In this document: positions 8,290 through 14,285 of the stretch, piece by piece
Position numbering within the stretch: position 1 is the first letter of the stretch
How the letters are laid out: every line of letters begins with the position of its first letter
Assembly (NCBI RefSeq): GCF_900128985.1
Contig: NZ_FQUC01000007.1
Location: 62,001 to 126,000, forward strand
From: Indolivaga macrotermitis
GTDB taxonomy: Bacteria; Bacteroidota; Bacteroidia; Bacteroidales; Dysgonomonadaceae
Length of the DNA: 64,000 nt
Direction of reading: 5' to 3'
Program-made: the position numbers and the translations under genes
Notes under the pieces: generated by a model
The model's input: the letters and a program-made list of their open reading frames with translations, nothing else
The model's database searches: none
What the model was told of the DNA's origin: nothing

Positions 8290-9555
8290 TTAGTCGGGAA
8301 AAATAATTTTCATCTGCTGATCATCATCTCCTTTGCGCTTTTTAGGCTCGGTCAATATTTTTCTCAAGTGTTCAGGAGTCGTTTCATTCACTGTATACAT
8401 AGGTAACTCGTTACAGGTAATAAAATATTGAGCCTTCTTCATTACAATACCCATCTTTTTTAACTGCGAAGCATTTAACCTGCCATAGCGACGTGAAGTA
8501 ACGATCAGCTTTGCCGATTTCACACCAATGCCCGGCACACGGAGGATCATCGAATAATCGGCACGATTAATATCAACCGGAAACATTTCGGGATGCCGCA
8601 GTGCCCATGCCAACTTAGGATCAATATCGAGGTCGAGGTTAGGAAAACGGTCATCAACAATCTCATCTGCACGGAACTCATAGAAACGCATCAGCCAATC
8701 GGCCTGATATAGACGGTTCTCCCTTACCAAAGGAGCGCTAGCCAGTACCGGCAGACGCTTATCGTAACTATTTACGGGAATAAAGCCCGAATAGTATACA
8801 CGCTTCATACTCGGACGCTTGTAGAGTAATGCTGATAAACGAATAATATCCTTATCAGTCTCATTGGTTGCTCCGACTATCATTTGGGTACTTTGTCCGG
8901 CAGGTACAAAACGGGGAGTCGAACGTATACGTTTACGGTCTTCGATACTTTGGAGCATTCCCTGCTGAATGTAGCGCATGGGTTGGAATACGCTGATATG
9001 ATCTTTTTCCGGTGCAAGAAGTTTCAGATTTTGCTCTGTCGGTATTTCGAGGTTGACACTCATACGGTCGGCATACAATCCGGCTTCGTTTACCAACTCC
9101 TGACTGGCTCCGGGTATGCTTTTCATATGGATATAGCCATTGAAGCGGTGAATAGTCCGTAATTCTTTTATTACACGCACCATACGTTCCATCGTATAAT
9201 CGGGATTATTAATAACTCCCGAACTAAGAAATAAGCCTTCGATATAATTTCGCCTGTAGAACTGAATTGTCAGGTCGACCAACTCATTTACGGTGAACGT
9301 AGCACGCCGTATATCGTTACTCCTCCGGTTGATGCAATACGCACAATCATAGATACAATTGTTGGTAAGCATAATCTTCAGCAACGACACACACCGTCCG
9401 TCTTCCGTAAAGCTATGACAGATGCCCATGCCTCCTACAGTGTTACCCAAGGTGCCCACTTTATTCTTACGGACAGTACCACTCGAGGAGCACGACACAT
9501 CGTATTTAGCCGACTCGGCAAGAACTTTAAGTTTCTCTAATACAGCGTCATTCAT
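8290..9555 (-). CDS. Putative DNA modification/repair radical SAM protein (TIGR03916)
   Basis: A 421-residue radical SAM enzyme. The 4Fe-4S cluster motif CIYDCAYC (CxxxCxxC, Cys67, 71, 74) begins the TIM-barrel domain, preceded by a Cys-bearing N-terminal segment (MGICHSFTEDGRC). The C-terminal part has a helix-hairpin-helix DNA-binding element (ILRVPGIGVKSAKLIVTSRR), supporting action on DNA. This domain order is that of TIGR03916, which is linked genetically to UDG-family proteins and to the TIGR03915 product encoded just downstream. The two genes probably form one operon. The modification or lesion handled is unknown. Confidence 0.9.
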   Translation of the reverse strand: MNDAVLEKLKVLAESAKYDVSCSSSGTVRKNKVGTLGNTVGGMGICHSFTEDGRCVSLLKIMLTNNCIYDCAYCINRRSNDIRRATFTVNELVDLTIQFYRRNYIEGLFLSSGVINNPDYTMERMVRVIKELRTIHRFNGYIHMKSIPGASQELVNEAGLYADRMSVNLEIPTEQNLKLLAPEKDHISVFQPMRYIQQGMLQSIEDRKRIRSTPRFVPAGQSTQMIVGATNETDKDIIRLSALLYKRPSMKRVYYSGFIPVNSYDKRLPVLASAPLVRENRLYQADWLMRFYEFRADEIVDDRFPNLDLDIDPKLAWALRHPEMFPVDINRADYSMILRVPGIGVKSAKLIVTSRRYGRLNASQLKKMGIVMKKAQYFITCNELPMYTVNETTPEHLRKILTEPKKRKGDDDQQMKIIFPD

Positions 9556-9743
9556 CGTATTACAAAGTAAGGAATTTTAGACAAAAGACCTATTAGAAAA
9601 AGTATTAAAAGCTTACTTTTTGTTGATAAAGTTTGTTGATACCTATAAAAGAAGAGAAAAGCGACCGATCAGATCTCAAGTTTACATTTTATTACCCAGA
9701 AGCGAAAAATAGTCTACATTTTCACACTTTTAAATATTTTTTA

Positions 9744-9751
9744 TATATTTG
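9744..9751 (+). promoter_or_regulatory. Promoter -7 box of the C10 protease gene
   Basis: TATATTTG, exact to TAnnTTTG, is 102 bp upstream of the protease ATG, leaving a 5' leader of roughly 90 nt. A weak TTTT run lies at the -33 position. The rest of the 298-bp gap from 9556 to 9853 shows no gene. Confidence 0.45.
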
Positions 9752-9853
9752 CGATACAAAACTTTGCAAATACCATACAAATAGCAGACACAGCTTTTAG
9801 AAACATTCTATATACACAGATAACATTTAAAACAACACACAAATTTGACAATC

Positions 9854-11026
9854 ATGAAAAAATTGTTTCCTTTTTTATTTGCATTTGTATTTTTATCGTG
9901 TAGCCACGATAACAGTATGGTGGACGAAAGTAGCCAAACAGACTTAGACACAAACTTTGTAGACATGCGCGAAGCTATCTCCATGGCAACACTCTTAGAG
10001 TATGATGTAACAAACCCCGGAACTTCAACCCGTAGTACCACTTATCTGGATGTAGAGAGTGCTGTACCCATAGGTGATACAGACAAACCCTCTTATTACA
10101 TTGTAAATTATGCAAACAATAGCGGATTTGTAATTATTGCAGCCGATAAACGGGCTGAACCGGTCTTAGCTTTCTCCACGGAGGGTAGTTTTGATATTGA
10201 CACAGATAAGCTACCGGGAGGCTTGGTAGAATGGATGTCCGGCACAAAGGATTATATACAAGATATCCGCGAATCGAATACACAATCTTCTGAAGCTCCT
10301 AACCTACGGCTTTGCGTCGCATTAAAATCGACCAGCACAAGAGCTTTAAATACAAGCGAATGCTCTAATAGTGCAAACTGCCCGGTTGAGTCGATATCTT
10401 CAACTGTGGTTGGCCCATTATTAGAAACAGCATGGAGTCAAGGAGTAGGTTTCAATGATTCAATTCCAATTCTCTGTGACGGAGGATGGCATGTACCCGC
10501 TGGTTGTGTGGCTATTGCGATGGCTCAGGTAATGTATTACCATAAATACCCAAGTACATATAATTGGGCAAAAATGCTCCCTTATCATGGAGGGAGTGAA
10601 GCCTCCCGTTTAATCAGGGACTTGGGCTTAACTGATGCCTTACACATGGATTATGGATGTGATGGTTCTTTCACAGATACAAAAAAAGCGGAATCTGTAT
10701 TCAAAAAGAATTTTGGATATAGCAGTGCTACATATGGAAGTTTCAACTCCAACATAGTACAAAGTCAGCTGAAAAGCGGATTACCTGTAATATTAAGAGG
10801 TGAAAAATCTTCAGGAGAAGCTGGACATGCTTGGGTATGCGATGGATTTATCCAAAGCAATACATGTACACACTCCACTCTGCAACTTCATATGAATTGG
10901 GGATGGGGTTCTCAATATACTACTACTGGGAAGAATTTTAACGGATGGTATGGAGTAAATGACTGGAATTCACCTAATGGTAATTTTAATCAAAAAAATG
11001 ATATGGTATATAATATCAAACCTTAA
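9854..11026 (+). CDS. Secreted C10-family (streptopain-type) cysteine protease, lipoprotein
   Basis: A 390-residue lipoprotein precursor: MKKLFPFLFAFVFLSCSHD gives a hydrophobic signal with a lipobox Cys. The frame can be extended three codons to a TTG at 9845, but the ATG at 9854 begins a proper signal peptide. Residues of about 80-110 (YYIVNYANNSGFVIIAADKR) match the Spi-type inhibitory propeptide of C10 peptidases. The mature domain has the catalytic Cys in AGCVAIAMAQVMYYHKYP (Cys218), the catalytic His in GHAWVCDGF (His325), and the NWGWG block. Relatives include streptopain, interpain, PrtT and Bacteroides fragilis Bfp proteases, which degrade host or environmental proteins. It heads a same-strand run of lipoprotein and barrel genes. 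Extra Cys residues in the propeptide/mature junction (ECSNSANCP) are unusual. Confidence 0.93.
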   Translation: MKKLFPFLFAFVFLSCSHDNSMVDESSQTDLDTNFVDMREAISMATLLEYDVTNPGTSTRSTTYLDVESAVPIGDTDKPSYYIVNYANNSGFVIIAADKRAEPVLAFSTEGSFDIDTDKLPGGLVEWMSGTKDYIQDIRESNTQSSEAPNLRLCVALKSTSTRALNTSECSNSANCPVESISSTVVGPLLETAWSQGVGFNDSIPILCDGGWHVPAGCVAIAMAQVMYYHKYPSTYNWAKMLPYHGGSEASRLIRDLGLTDALHMDYGCDGSFTDTKKAESVFKKNFGYSSATYGSFNSNIVQSQLKSGLPVILRGEKSSGEAGHAWVCDGFIQSNTCTHSTLQLHMNWGWGSQYTTTGKNFNGWYGVNDWNSPNGNFNQKNDMVYNIKP

Positions 11027-11044
11027 CAAAACACATAACAAGTT

Positions 11045-11554
11045 ATGAATAAATACACTAGTTACATAATTATACTTTTTGCTTTAATCGGATGTAGTGA
11101 TGATACCCCAGAAGTCCTACCTCCACCTCTAGGACAAAGTTTTTACCTCTTAGATAAGGATGGGGATGATCTGCTTGATCCACAAAGCGAGAAGGCTATT
11201 GACGCTAAAAAAATAAATATTTATTATTTAGTAAATGGGGAGAGAATAGAAGCAAACAGATACTTTCTAATGCTGAATTTTCCTACATTAAATTATGGAT
11301 TTGGAATAACTGCTCCAAATTCAGCAAATAATAAAAGTCATTATTATATCAATATAGCATTAAATCAATCTGGAAATAATGGCGATACCTTATATACATA
11401 TGTTGAATGGAATGAGAATGATATTGATACTATCAAATCAAAGATATATAAAAAGGGTAAAGTCTTTGATTGCACAATGGTAGCATACAACGACTCGGTA
11501 TGGACTCCAAACCAGTTAGAAAACAGAACTATATTTACAATTATTAAACCTTAG
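11045..11554 (+). CDS. Lipoprotein with EF-hand-like loop, paralogue A
   Basis: A 169-residue lipoprotein (signal ending LFALIGCSDD) of a family I do not recognise. After a short linker comes GQSFYLLDKDGDDLLDPQSE, whose DxDGDxxxD spacing resembles a calcium-binding EF-hand or dockerin loop. The rest is predicted beta-rich, ending VWTPNQLENRTIFTIIKP. It starts 18 bp after the C10 protease stop and so is probably co-transcribed. A paralogue follows at 11626. In B. fragilis, C10 protease genes are followed by small inhibitor genes; whether these lipoproteins inhibit the protease is inference from position only. The short stem at 11562 may limit read-through. Confidence 0.8.
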   Translation: MNKYTSYIIILFALIGCSDDTPEVLPPPLGQSFYLLDKDGDDLLDPQSEKAIDAKKINIYYLVNGERIEANRYFLMLNFPTLNYGFGITAPNSANNKSHYYINIALNQSGNNGDTLYTYVEWNENDIDTIKSKIYKKGKVFDCTMVAYNDSVWTPNQLENRTIFTIIKP

Positions 11555-11561
11555 AATAGAT

Positions 11562-11600
11562 GGAGGAGAGATAACATATTATTTACTCCTCCTTTCTTTT
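11562..11600 (+). terminator. Possible attenuator/terminator between the two lipoproteins
   Basis: GGAGGAG (11562-11568) pairs with CTCCTCC (11586-11592) across a 17-nt loop, followed by TTTCTTTT. The stem is only 7 bp, so it may attenuate rather than stop transcription between the two paralogues. Confidence 0.45.
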
Positions 11601-11625
11601 ACAACCCTAACAACACACAACATTT

Positions 11626-12147
11626 ATGAAGAAATACATTTTTACAGTTTTAATATTTTATATTTTTACTGCCTGTAGTAAAAATGAAAATGGTGAAGCT
11701 TTCAACTTTGTAGCTGGACAAAGTTTTTATCTTTTAGATAAGGATGGGAATGACCGGCTTAATCCACAGAGCGAGATGGCTATTAATGCCAAGAAAATAA
11801 GAATTTATTATTTAGTAGACGGAGAAAGAATGGAAGCTATTGAATACTTACATATGATGGCTCCCAATGCTATTTTAGATAATCCATATGGATTTGGGAT
11901 CGGAGCCCCAAGTCCAATAAGTAATCGAAGTTATTATAGTATTGATGTTGGATTAAACTGTAAAGGTAACGATGGAGATATTCTATACACTTATATAGAA
12001 TGGGATGAGAATGATACGGACACTATTAGGTCCGAGATATATAGAAAAAATTCCGTACTAAAATCTACAATAGTAGCATTTAACGACTCGGTATGGACTC
12101 CAAACCAATTAGAAAACAGAACTATATTTACAATTATTAAACCATAA
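11626..12147 (+). CDS. Lipoprotein with EF-hand-like loop, paralogue B
   Basis: A 173-residue lipoprotein (IFYIFTACSKN lipobox), clearly a tandem duplicate of the preceding gene: both carry GQSFYLLDKDG near the mature N-terminus, IYYLVxGERxEA, YGFGIxAP, DTLYTY/DILYTY followed by EWxEND, and the identical end VWTPNQLENRTIFTIIKP. In this copy the acidic loop is DKDGNDRLNPQSE. The last ~60 nt of both genes are nearly identical at the DNA level while the rest has diverged. Function unknown; see the protease neighbour for context. The DNA is AT-rich relative to the flanking housekeeping genes. Confidence 0.8.
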   Translation: MKKYIFTVLIFYIFTACSKNENGEAFNFVAGQSFYLLDKDGNDRLNPQSEMAINAKKIRIYYLVDGERMEAIEYLHMMAPNAILDNPYGFGIGAPSPISNRSYYSIDVGLNCKGNDGDILYTYIEWDENDTDTIRSEIYRKNSVLKSTIVAFNDSVWTPNQLENRTIFTIIKP

Positions 12148-12158
12148 AGTTTAATTCC

Positions 12159-12653
12159 ATGAACAGATTCTTTTATTTTATTCTGTTATGCTTTATTAGT
12201 ATAACGACAGTACAAGCTCAAAAATCGTCGCTAACCGTTGACCTTGGTTATCGGAATAAGTCCGACAGGGCAAACTGGGGGATTGGGACACAATTCAAAT
12301 ACACTTTAGTAAAGGATTTCCGTTTAGGTGCAGATGCAATGATATATATTCCTGAAGATAGTTACATGGGCTTGGATATCGGGGTTAATGCTCAATATCT
12401 TATACATTTACAGGAGAGACTTTTAGTTTATCCGGTTGCCGGGCTGATTATATCGAATCATAGATTCCCTTCGGATCCTAAGGCTAGACATGTAACCGGG
12501 TTGGGGTTCAGTTTTGGATTAGGAGGTGAATTTTATCTTAGCCAAAAATATTTTATTAATGCTGATTTAAGGTATTCTCTAATTGATAAAGATAAGCCTC
12601 ATTGGTATAAAGATTATGCTCTTTTCCGCGTTGGATTAGGTTTCAGGCTTTAA
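12159..12653 (+). CDS. Small outer-membrane beta-barrel protein
   Basis: A 164-residue protein with a cleavable signal peptide (ISITTVQAQ) and alternating amphipathic strands ending in an aromatic/hydrophobic terminus (FRVGLGFRL), the pattern of 8-stranded OmpA/OmpW-like barrels (porin-like/OMP_b-brl). Glycine-rich strands include GLGFSFGLGGEFYLS. It is 11 bp downstream of paralogue B and ends the island before a strong terminator, so it may be part of the protease-lipoprotein transcript. Its role could be an outer-membrane anchor or be unrelated. Confidence 0.75.
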   Translation: MNRFFYFILLCFISITTVQAQKSSLTVDLGYRNKSDRANWGIGTQFKYTLVKDFRLGADAMIYIPEDSYMGLDIGVNAQYLIHLQERLLVYPVAGLIISNHRFPSDPKARHVTGLGFSFGLGGEFYLSQKYFINADLRYSLIDKDKPHWYKDYALFRVGLGFRL

Positions 12654-12670
12654 TATGAATATTTAATAAA

Positions 12671-12710
12671 AAACGGATGTGATTGCTTTAGTCACATCCG
12701 TTTCTTGTTT
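12671..12710. terminator. Bidirectional hairpin terminator
   Basis: A perfect 12-bp stem AAACGGATGTGA (12671-12682) / TCACATCCGTTT (12692-12703), 9-nt loop, followed by TCTTGTTTTT on the plus strand and preceded by an A-run that becomes a T-run on the minus strand. It separates the convergent barrel gene and RNase G gene. Confidence 0.85.
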
Positions 12711-14285
12711 TTATTTCAGTTCGATGTCCTGTTTCAGGTCTATTTCTTCCCTGTCTTTATCATAAAAATGATATTCGAGAAATGCCAGGCTTTGGTCGGG
12801 TATTATCTTGAACCCGAATCCATAACGCCATTTCCATTGCCATTTTAACGAAGGAAATCCCTTTTCTATATATGCTGCTATGTACGGATGTACATGAAGG
12901 GTAAATTTTTTCACTTCCAGCTTATTTACTAAATAGCTGATCTTAGACCTTAATGAATCGGTAAATAAAATCGACGGTTTTATTTCACCTTTTCCAAAAC
13001 ATGTAGGGCATGTCTCTGTTGTATCTACTACCATTTCGGGGCGGACCCGTTGACGGGTAATCTGCATCAACCCGAATTTACTTAATGGCAATATATTGTG
13101 TTTTGCCCTGTCATTAGCCATCAATTCCTGCATTCGCGAGATCAGTTTGCTGCGATGCTCGCCTTCCGACATATCTATAAAATCGATTACTATAATTCCT
13201 CCCAAGTCGCGTAGGCGAAGTTGCCGTGAAATCTCTTCGGCCGCTGCCGAGTTTACTTCGAAGGCATTATTTTCTTGTCCGGCCTCCAATACTTTCGAAC
13301 GGTTACCACTGTTTACATCTATTACATGCAATGCCTCGGTATGTTCTATTATCAGATAGGCTCCATTACGGAAAGTTACAGTTTTGCCGAACAATGCTTT
13401 CATTTGTTTGGTTACGGCAAAGCTGTCGAAGATGGGTAGATCGCCTGTATAAAGCTTTACAATATCTTTTTTATCAGGAGCTATAATACTGATATAGTCC
13501 TTGATCTGGCTGAATATCTCTTTGTCATTGACGTGAATGTCCTGAAAGGACGAATTAAATACATCACGCAACAATCCTACGATACGGCCTGTTTCCTCAT
13601 AGATAAGGGTTGGCAGCTTTTCTTTTTGAATTTTCGGTAAGTTTTCCTCCCAGCGTTTCACCAAAGTTTTCAGCTCATTATCCAGCTCAATTACTTTTTT
13701 CCCTTCGGCTACGGTGCGGACTATTACTCCAAAATTCTTAGGCTTTATACTCTGAATCAACTGGCGAAGGCGTGCCCGTTCTTCTTTCGATTTTATTTTT
13801 TGTGATATCGATACTTTATCGTTGAACGGGATCAGTACCAGAAACCGTCCGGCAAATGAAAGCTCGGATGTAAGGCGGGGACCTTTGGTCGAAATAGGCT
13901 CTTTTGCTACCTGTACCAATATTTCCTGTCCGACTTTCAGTATATCGCTTATACTGCCATCCTTGTCGATATCTTTCTCAAGTGTCATCTTCGACACCAG
14001 CGGAAATTTTTTCTTGTCGTTTAATGCTTGTTTGTAGAATTTGTCTACAGATTTGAATTGTGGCCCTAGGTCTAAGTAGTGAAGAAATGCATCCTTCTTG
14101 TATCCGATGTCTATAAATGCAGCATTCAGGCCCGGCATCAGTTTTTTAACCCTGCCGGCATAAATGTTACCTACCGCGTACGAAACGTCTCTTGCTTCTT
14201 TCTGAAGTTCTACTAATTTCTTATCTTCCAGTACAGCAATAGAGATTTCTTGCGGTTGAACATCAACTACAAGTTCACTATTCAT
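12711..14285 (-). CDS. rng: Ribonuclease G/E family endoribonuclease
   Basis: A 524-residue Rne/Rng family enzyme that cleaves single-stranded AU-rich RNA in rRNA processing and mRNA decay. An S1 RNA-binding domain starts near residue 37 (GNIYAGRVKKLMPGLNAAF) and the 5'-sensor region follows. The catalytic metal ligands are in VIDVNSG (Asp323) and IVIDFIDMSEG (Asp368), and the zinc-link pair is CPTC (Cys426, Cys429). It lacks the long C-terminal degradosome scaffold of RNase E, matching RNase G length. Downstream on the same strand from HU and the small COX24-like protein, an order commonly seen in Bacteroidota. Confidence 0.96.
   Translation of the reverse strand: MNSELVVDVQPQEISIAVLEDKKLVELQKEARDVSYAVGNIYAGRVKKLMPGLNAAFIDIGYKKDAFLHYLDLGPQFKSVDKFYKQALNDKKKFPLVSKMTLEKDIDKDGSISDILKVGQEILVQVAKEPISTKGPRLTSELSFAGRFLVLIPFNDKVSISQKIKSKEERARLRQLIQSIKPKNFGVIVRTVAEGKKVIELDNELKTLVKRWEENLPKIQKEKLPTLIYEETGRIVGLLRDVFNSSFQDIHVNDKEIFSQIKDYISIIAPDKKDIVKLYTGDLPIFDSFAVTKQMKALFGKTVTFRNGAYLIIEHTEALHVIDVNSGNRSKVLEAGQENNAFEVNSAAAEEISRQLRLRDLGGIIVIDFIDMSEGEHRSKLISRMQELMANDRAKHNILPLSKFGLMQITRQRVRPEMVVDTTETCPTCFGKGEIKPSILFTDSLRSKISYLVNKLEVKKFTLHVHPYIAAYIEKGFPSLKWQWKWRYGFGFKIIPDQSLAFLEYHFYDKDREEIDLKQDIELK

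Follow-up and report, generated by a model that had tools for sequence, protein, structure and literature searches.

A recurrent C10 protease-lipoprotein pair in Bacteroidales and its possible role as a second lock on a lipid-anchored zymogen

In Bacteroides fragilis, the C10 cysteine proteases Bfp1 and Bfp4 are encoded within 35 bp of the small proteins Bfi1A, Bfi1B and Bfi4 and are co-transcribed with them, as described in passages of PMC2873492, where the Bfi proteins appear as staphostatin-like polypeptides of 116-138 amino acids (aa), two of the three being predicted lipoproteins. According to parts of PMC3462683, the proteases BtpA, BtpB and BtpZ of Bacteroides thetaiotaomicron are accompanied by the small partners BtiA, BtiB and BtiZ at a distance of 4-14 bp; two of the three Bti proteins are likely lipoproteins, and passages of that paper differ as to which two. 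Passages of both papers also predict that the C10 zymogens of B. fragilis are lipid-tethered and released on maturation, and that the neighbouring small proteins are inhibitors, inhibition being proposed from sequence (PMC2873492, PMC3462683). Here, we discuss a locus of Indolivaga macrotermitis, contained in a stretch of 64,000 nucleotides (contig NZ_FQUC01000007.1, positions 62,001 to 126,000; hereafter the window), in which a C10 protease gene is followed by the genes of two small lipoproteins, LP1 and LP2. That protease and lipoproteins form a recurrent cognate pair is well supported.

The protease gene occupies positions 9854-11026 of the plus strand (ATG at 9854, stop at 11024-11026). 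Its product matches PF01640 at 1.8e-28, with 100.5 bits against a curated cut-off of 26, and contains a Spi-type propeptide of the I69 family (PF13734 at 2.5e-18) as well as a signal of the lipoprotein type with Cys16. Alignment to streptopain identifies the catalytic residues Cys218 (PAGCVAIA) and His325 (GHAW), and both columns are invariant across 13 aligned C10 sequences. Judged by its sequence, the window protease is a lipo-zymogen of peptidase family C10 with an I69 propeptide; the streptopain-type protease and Spi-like propeptide of a first-pass annotation of this DNA are borne out by both family models and by the catalytic motifs. LP1 (11045-11554, plus strand, 169 aa) starts with an ATG 18 bp past the C10 stop, exactly the gap given by that annotation, and its paralogue LP2 (11626-12147, plus strand, 173 aa, 59% identical) begins 71 bp after LP1. 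Both match the profile of a lipoprotein family, carry the lipoprotein Cys and stand behind C10; both are also rows of that profile.

How often does this arrangement recur? Within a family-level set of 101 genomes, referred to here by working labels, the lipoprotein is found in eight and a C10 match in 28 (27 over the cut-off). A C10 gene lies directly upstream on the same strand in six of the eight lipoprotein-bearing genomes, followed by two lipoprotein copies in G000 and G027, one in G001 and G060, and three in G005 and G010. As for the other two, the G004 locus is at a contig end and G012 is without C10. The genes flanking the pairs, read by eye, differ between genomes. At the level of the order, the lipoprotein occurs in 30 of 392 Bacteroidales genomes; 40 listed places correspond to 36 loci, 34 of which were examined (G413:C73 and G130:C126 were left out), and two of the C10-paired genomes also belong to the family set. 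C10 is directly upstream at 19 of these 34 loci, namely at 15/30 best loci and 4/4 second loci. Across 23 loci, not counting five in which C10 is disrupted, the median spacing between C10 and lipoprotein is 14 bp.

Three of five named loci are likewise paired, those of D. alginatilytica, D. hofstadii and Aequorivita sinensis; the first two are the G001 and G010 loci of the family set, so that only the Aequorivita pair is new. A class-level set of 396 genomes adds three lipoprotein-bearing genomes besides that of the window, with four loci, one of them beside a disrupted C10. Fourteen plasmid records have a C10 match, and two of the five opened show a short C10 followed by a member of the lipoprotein family, after 21 bp in P. 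distasonis and after 6 bp in B. uniformis pBUN1. Membership is weak for pBUN1 (profile 6e-5, and phmmer connects it with no member other than the divergent one of G060); the P. distasonis record scores 4e-13 and is labelled a plasmid, though, with mfd on it, it may be a piece of chromosome. The pBUN1 pair (L118, NZ_AP019725.1, 2992-4962) adjoins mobilization genes, and the plasmid is typed as mobilizable. Five genomes keep an intact lipoprotein beside a disrupted C10 (G105, G180 at one of its two loci, G272, G227 and G831; loci L080, L084, L060, L062 and L235), and the reverse case, an intact C10 without an intact lipoprotein, was seen at none of the loci of this lipoprotein family; in G154 a broken second copy stands behind an intact first. 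As most loci were found via the lipoprotein, the sample is biased and this asymmetry of decay is not used as evidence.

The same picture emerges from the protease side. A C10 profile of 13 proteins, all from lipoprotein-linked loci, was searched in the same 392 genomes. All 17 matches above 300 bits carry the lipoprotein, all of them already known from the lipoprotein side, and so do 19 of the 20 best matches, including G109 at 2.4e-10, which the lipoprotein search had missed; the exception, G372, has a barrel-like gene in place of the lipoprotein. Lower-ranked matches are mostly long C10 proteins. In a tree of 38 C10 proteins, 23 of the 24 with a member of this lipoprotein family fall behind one branch with a support of 96/95. 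The label of linkage to the family changes twice on the tree compared with 11.6 times in shuffles, none of 500 of which was as low. The distances of 24 C10-lipoprotein pairs correlate as well (r 0.415, a value reached in none of 5000 permutations), which linked inheritance alone can cause. Among the other lipoproteins found behind C10 genes, those of family C are accompanied by C10 genes (three close relatives) that also form a clade. A lipoprotein tree of 49 rows, built without the G113 fragment and G004, contains one subclade that is mostly orphan, seven of its eight members lying away from C10. By eye these share a W-x-DG motif; the unlinked members are L126, L128, L131, L133, L134, L135 and L142, the eighth being L016.

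What kind of proteins are LP1 and LP2? Neither reaches the cut-off of any Pfam, NCBIfam or PHROGs family, and the family is unnamed in the open-access literature found by the search. Complete members that were aligned or followed mostly measure 140-185 aa, with one of 224 aa in a plasmid record. LP1 and LP2 give no match to PF13734 at E up to 1, and an origin from the C10 propeptide was rejected: hhalign with the propeptide alignment covers 34 columns, in the signal region only. Pfam contains staphostatin models; none of them is among the matches of LP1 and LP2 at E up to 1. Searched against the PDB at E up to 1, a profile of the family has no matching chain. LP1 has a predicted beta-rich fold, for which fold comparison returned weak immunoglobulin-like matches only; neither a staphostatin nor another inhibitor appears among these matches, which proves nothing. 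The earlier impression that the lipoproteins resemble neither staphostatins nor Spi holds in the searches made. Its companion, an EF-hand-like calcium loop at the DKDG motif (residue 37 in LP1, 38 in LP2), does not: neither protein contains the core pattern D.[DNS].[DNSG]G, no EF-hand model matches, and a looser 12-residue pattern matches once, at LP2 residue 116, distant from the motif. A calcium role of LP1 and LP2 is not supported.

From the lipid Cys onward the sequence reads C-S-D-D in LP1, C-S-K-N-E in LP2 and C-S-H-D-N in the C10 protein. A sequence SDDDD has been proposed, in passages of PMC5080379, as a surface export signal of B. fragilis lipoproteins; LP1 may hint at such a signal, while LP2 and C10 fit less well. 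Relatives of the family were absent from the viral contigs searched, and tblastn with LP1 at E 0.01 gave no match in plasmids or phages.

Starting from the recurrent adjacency, the matched C10 clade, the lipoprotein signals and the tandem copies, we infer a cognate module in which LP1 and LP2 bind and inhibit the mature protease as a membrane-bound second lock, a reading to which we give about half of our credence. As a newly made, lipid-anchored zymogen, the protease would have its active site masked by the I69 propeptide, the first lock. Maturation would then free the catalytic domain from its lipid anchor, while LP1 and LP2, produced from the same transcript and anchored in the same membrane, would stay behind and inhibit the mature protease near the producing cell. 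They would thereby do the job of Spi and the staphostatins with a protein of another family.

Several findings weigh against the second lock or limit the pairing on which it builds. The recurrent adjacency that the first-pass annotation had proposed as a check is partial: next to the 19 paired order-level loci, 15 of the 34 are without C10 in the stretch read (as far as ~6 kb to each side where the contig was long enough), as are three of the four further class-level loci and two of the five named loci (an uncultured Flavobacteriaceae bacterium and Bacteroides reticulotermitis). Eight of the 15 order-level genomes with an unlinked lipoprotein give no C10 match at E 1e-5 at all, and therefore some members must have foreign proteases as their target or work in another way. 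Nine of the 17 top C10 matches are rows of the profile, which was built from linked rows only. One lipoprotein-linked C10, that of P. distasonis on a long branch, does not fall in the clade, and those C10 genes that stand beside family B lipoproteins form none (four changes, 500/500 shuffles as low); lineage matching is thus shown for the LP1/LP2 family only. Linkage is not clearly clustered on the lipoprotein tree, with 12 changes against 14.3 to 14.4 when shuffled and 53 to 61 of 500 shuffles as low. A model of the C10 catalytic domain fused to LP1, with the natural gap as linker, was not confident, reaching a predicted template modelling score (pTM) of 0.50 and a predicted local distance difference test (pLDDT) of 68. 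Conservation of a partner, finally, would fit an activator, a chaperone or a substrate equally well.

This last point leads to the first alternative, in which the lipoproteins would activate the protease, help it fold or dock it at the membrane instead of inhibiting it. Adjacency and a matched lineage are expected of any obligate partner. The eight orphan-bearing genomes without a C10 match, however, offer nothing to activate; they speak against a pure activator and leave room for immunity-like or unrelated roles. Tandem, strongly diverged copies would also be unusual for a folding helper, and we regard this alternative as unlikely, if one to be taken seriously.

A different role is suggested by the wider repertoire of C10 genes. 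At family level, 17 of 21 examined loci with a short C10 have a small lipoprotein gene within 300 bp downstream, six of the LP1/LP2 family and 11 of others. Near-copies and disrupted C10 genes scoring below the limit are not in this count, nor are the second C10 genes that several genomes have or long C10 genes truncated where the locus ends; the lipobox pattern was loose, and the barrel-like gene that it flagged at L036 is not counted. The 11 other lipoproteins show no phmmer similarity to the LP1/LP2 family at 0.01. Kinship between the families was rejected: hhalign on three groups aligned signal regions, except for 40 columns aligned with family C at a probability of 82%. Such other families stand behind short C10 genes at L030, L194, L204, L033, L040, L041 and L052, several as tandem paralogues. 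Arrays of three occur in G005, G010, G015 and G093, and of two in the window, in G027 and at the second C10 locus of G005, tandem paralogy outside the LP1/LP2 family being judged by eye.

Could the pair then be a toxin directed at other bacteria, with tandem copies and orphans serving as immunity genes against variants? The lipoproteins of dissimilar families that follow other short C10 genes would fit, as would the arrays of two to three, the orphans in genomes without a C10 match, the plasmid pair beside mobilization genes and the presence or absence of the unit at one site between sister genomes (see below). Yet no delivery domain came up when the window proteins were scanned with Pfam, none being sought elsewhere, and self-protection explains every part too, which leaves the toxin-immunity pair rather improbable in our view. 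Its broader form, to which we likewise attach little confidence, would see the C10 proteases of Bacteroidota as a diversified toxin-like system whose lineages recruited their own non-homologous lipoprotein inhibitors, with tandem copies and C10-free orphans acting as immunity against neighbours' proteases.

That the lipoproteins are cargo or substrates which the protease processes at the membrane is quite improbable: co-location and the matched lineage would fit, but neither C10-free orphans nor as many as three paralogous substrates in tandem would be expected. Chance neighbours or functionally unlinked passengers of one mobile unit are a very remote prospect: the site of the unit is variable and genes travelling together can by themselves give correlated distances, but the pair is kept amid different flanking genes (by eye), spreads across the order and into Aequorivita, and its 19/34 adjacency compares with well under one expected (a rough estimate from a few C10 genes in some 3000).

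The surroundings of the pair add to its description. A small outer-membrane beta barrel (12159-12653, plus strand; PF13505 at 1.7e-8) starts with an ATG 11 bp past the LP2 stop and is probably co-transcribed with the C10-lipoprotein operon. Open reading frames (ORFs) and family matches confirm the gene order first proposed, from the C10 protease through two paralogous lipoproteins and the barrel to a terminator. The barrel as a part of the island stands for the window itself and weakly beyond it: a barrel or barrel-like gene is next in the run at two of 25 loci of the lipoprotein family (downstream genes read by eye, some loci ending with the contig), and a regular third component is not supported. 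The second case, G352:C73, matches PF13568 at 2.7e-4, below the cut-off, and has no significant BLASTP match to the window barrel, of which a 52% homologue is found in G004 between RNase G and methionyl-tRNA synthetase, without C10. Barrels or barrel-like proteins likewise come after other C10 genes, in G017 (PF13568) and, by eye and with no significant Pfam match, in G035 and G372. The barrel or barrel-like genes behind C10, or behind C10 and lipoprotein, lie at L157 2345-2944, L036 694-1281, L045 2949-3605 and L191 2232-2951.

Upstream, the motif TATATTTG (9744-9751, plus strand) is a possible -7 element of the operon promoter, a type that we take to be the Bacteroidota -7 element (TAnnTTTG). 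A radical-SAM gene (8290-9555, minus strand) is divergent from the operon, and an RNase E/G-type gene (12711-14285, minus strand) converges with the barrel gene. Between LP1 and LP2 an RNA hairpin (11552-11601, plus strand) was detected by folding against shuffles; 11552-11625 folds at -16.3 kcal/mol (z -5.6) with a T-rich stretch 3' of the hairpin, a possible attenuator that would lower LP2 expression. The terminator noted earlier is confirmed between the convergent genes (12671-12703, no strand assigned), with a 15-pair stem and a T-rich tail; terminator-like sites number two in the region against a shuffle mean of 2.0, and stem length alone sets this one apart. The claim of an AT-rich island holds for the whole, at 35.4% guanine plus cytosine against 39.2% in the window (5/305 3-kb windows being equally low), and not for each part: the lipoprotein genes lie at 31-32%, C10 itself at 40%.

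The closest sister genome, G002, has both flanking genes (proteins 94-95% identical) at a distance of 932 bp, and the alignment spans window positions 9404-9671 and 12694-12830 while 9672-12693 (plus strand) finds no counterpart. Since the alignment omits the island, it is a presence/absence unit between the two genomes. At this site G002 carries a 196-aa ORF (L221 = G002:C18:34800-36000, 315-905) that by eye looks small-terminase-like.

How does the locus compare with the described systems? Inhibitors neighbouring C10 genes of Bacteroides were proposed from weak staphostatin similarity. The present family, for which the searched libraries contain no model, follows one C10 clade through the order and beyond, and lipoproteins of other families accompany other short C10 genes; matched and mismatched C10-lipoprotein pairs thus provide a ready set for testing specific inhibition, and a route toward naming many hypothetical lipoproteins. 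The staphopain-staphostatin couple shares with the window the adjacency of genes, in its case of protease and inhibitor, but staphopain belongs to family C47, and LP1 matches no staphostatin in sequence or among the folds listed. SpeB of Streptococcus pyogenes is a C10 protease with Spi as its neighbouring inhibitor gene, Spi being a propeptide analogue in passages of PMC2873492. The window protease itself carries an I69 propeptide; unlike Spi, LP1 and LP2 give no I69 match and align with C10 propeptides in the signal region alone. Closest are the Bacteroides systems. As in Bfp-Bfi, a C10 lipo-zymogen lies beside small exported proteins, and as in Btp-Bti, compared by description only, C10 is coupled to small partner genes; LP1 and LP2 thus share the traits of Bfi and Bti proteins, which are exported, often lipoproteins and encoded beside C10. 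In contrast to the shorter Bfi proteins, described as staphostatin-like, the family of LP1 and LP2 is mostly longer and gave no staphostatin similarity in the searches made, a distinction made by description only. The architecture is thus known from Bfp-Bfi and Btp-Bti, and the lipoprotein family that fills it here appears to be new, set apart from Bfi and Bti by description.

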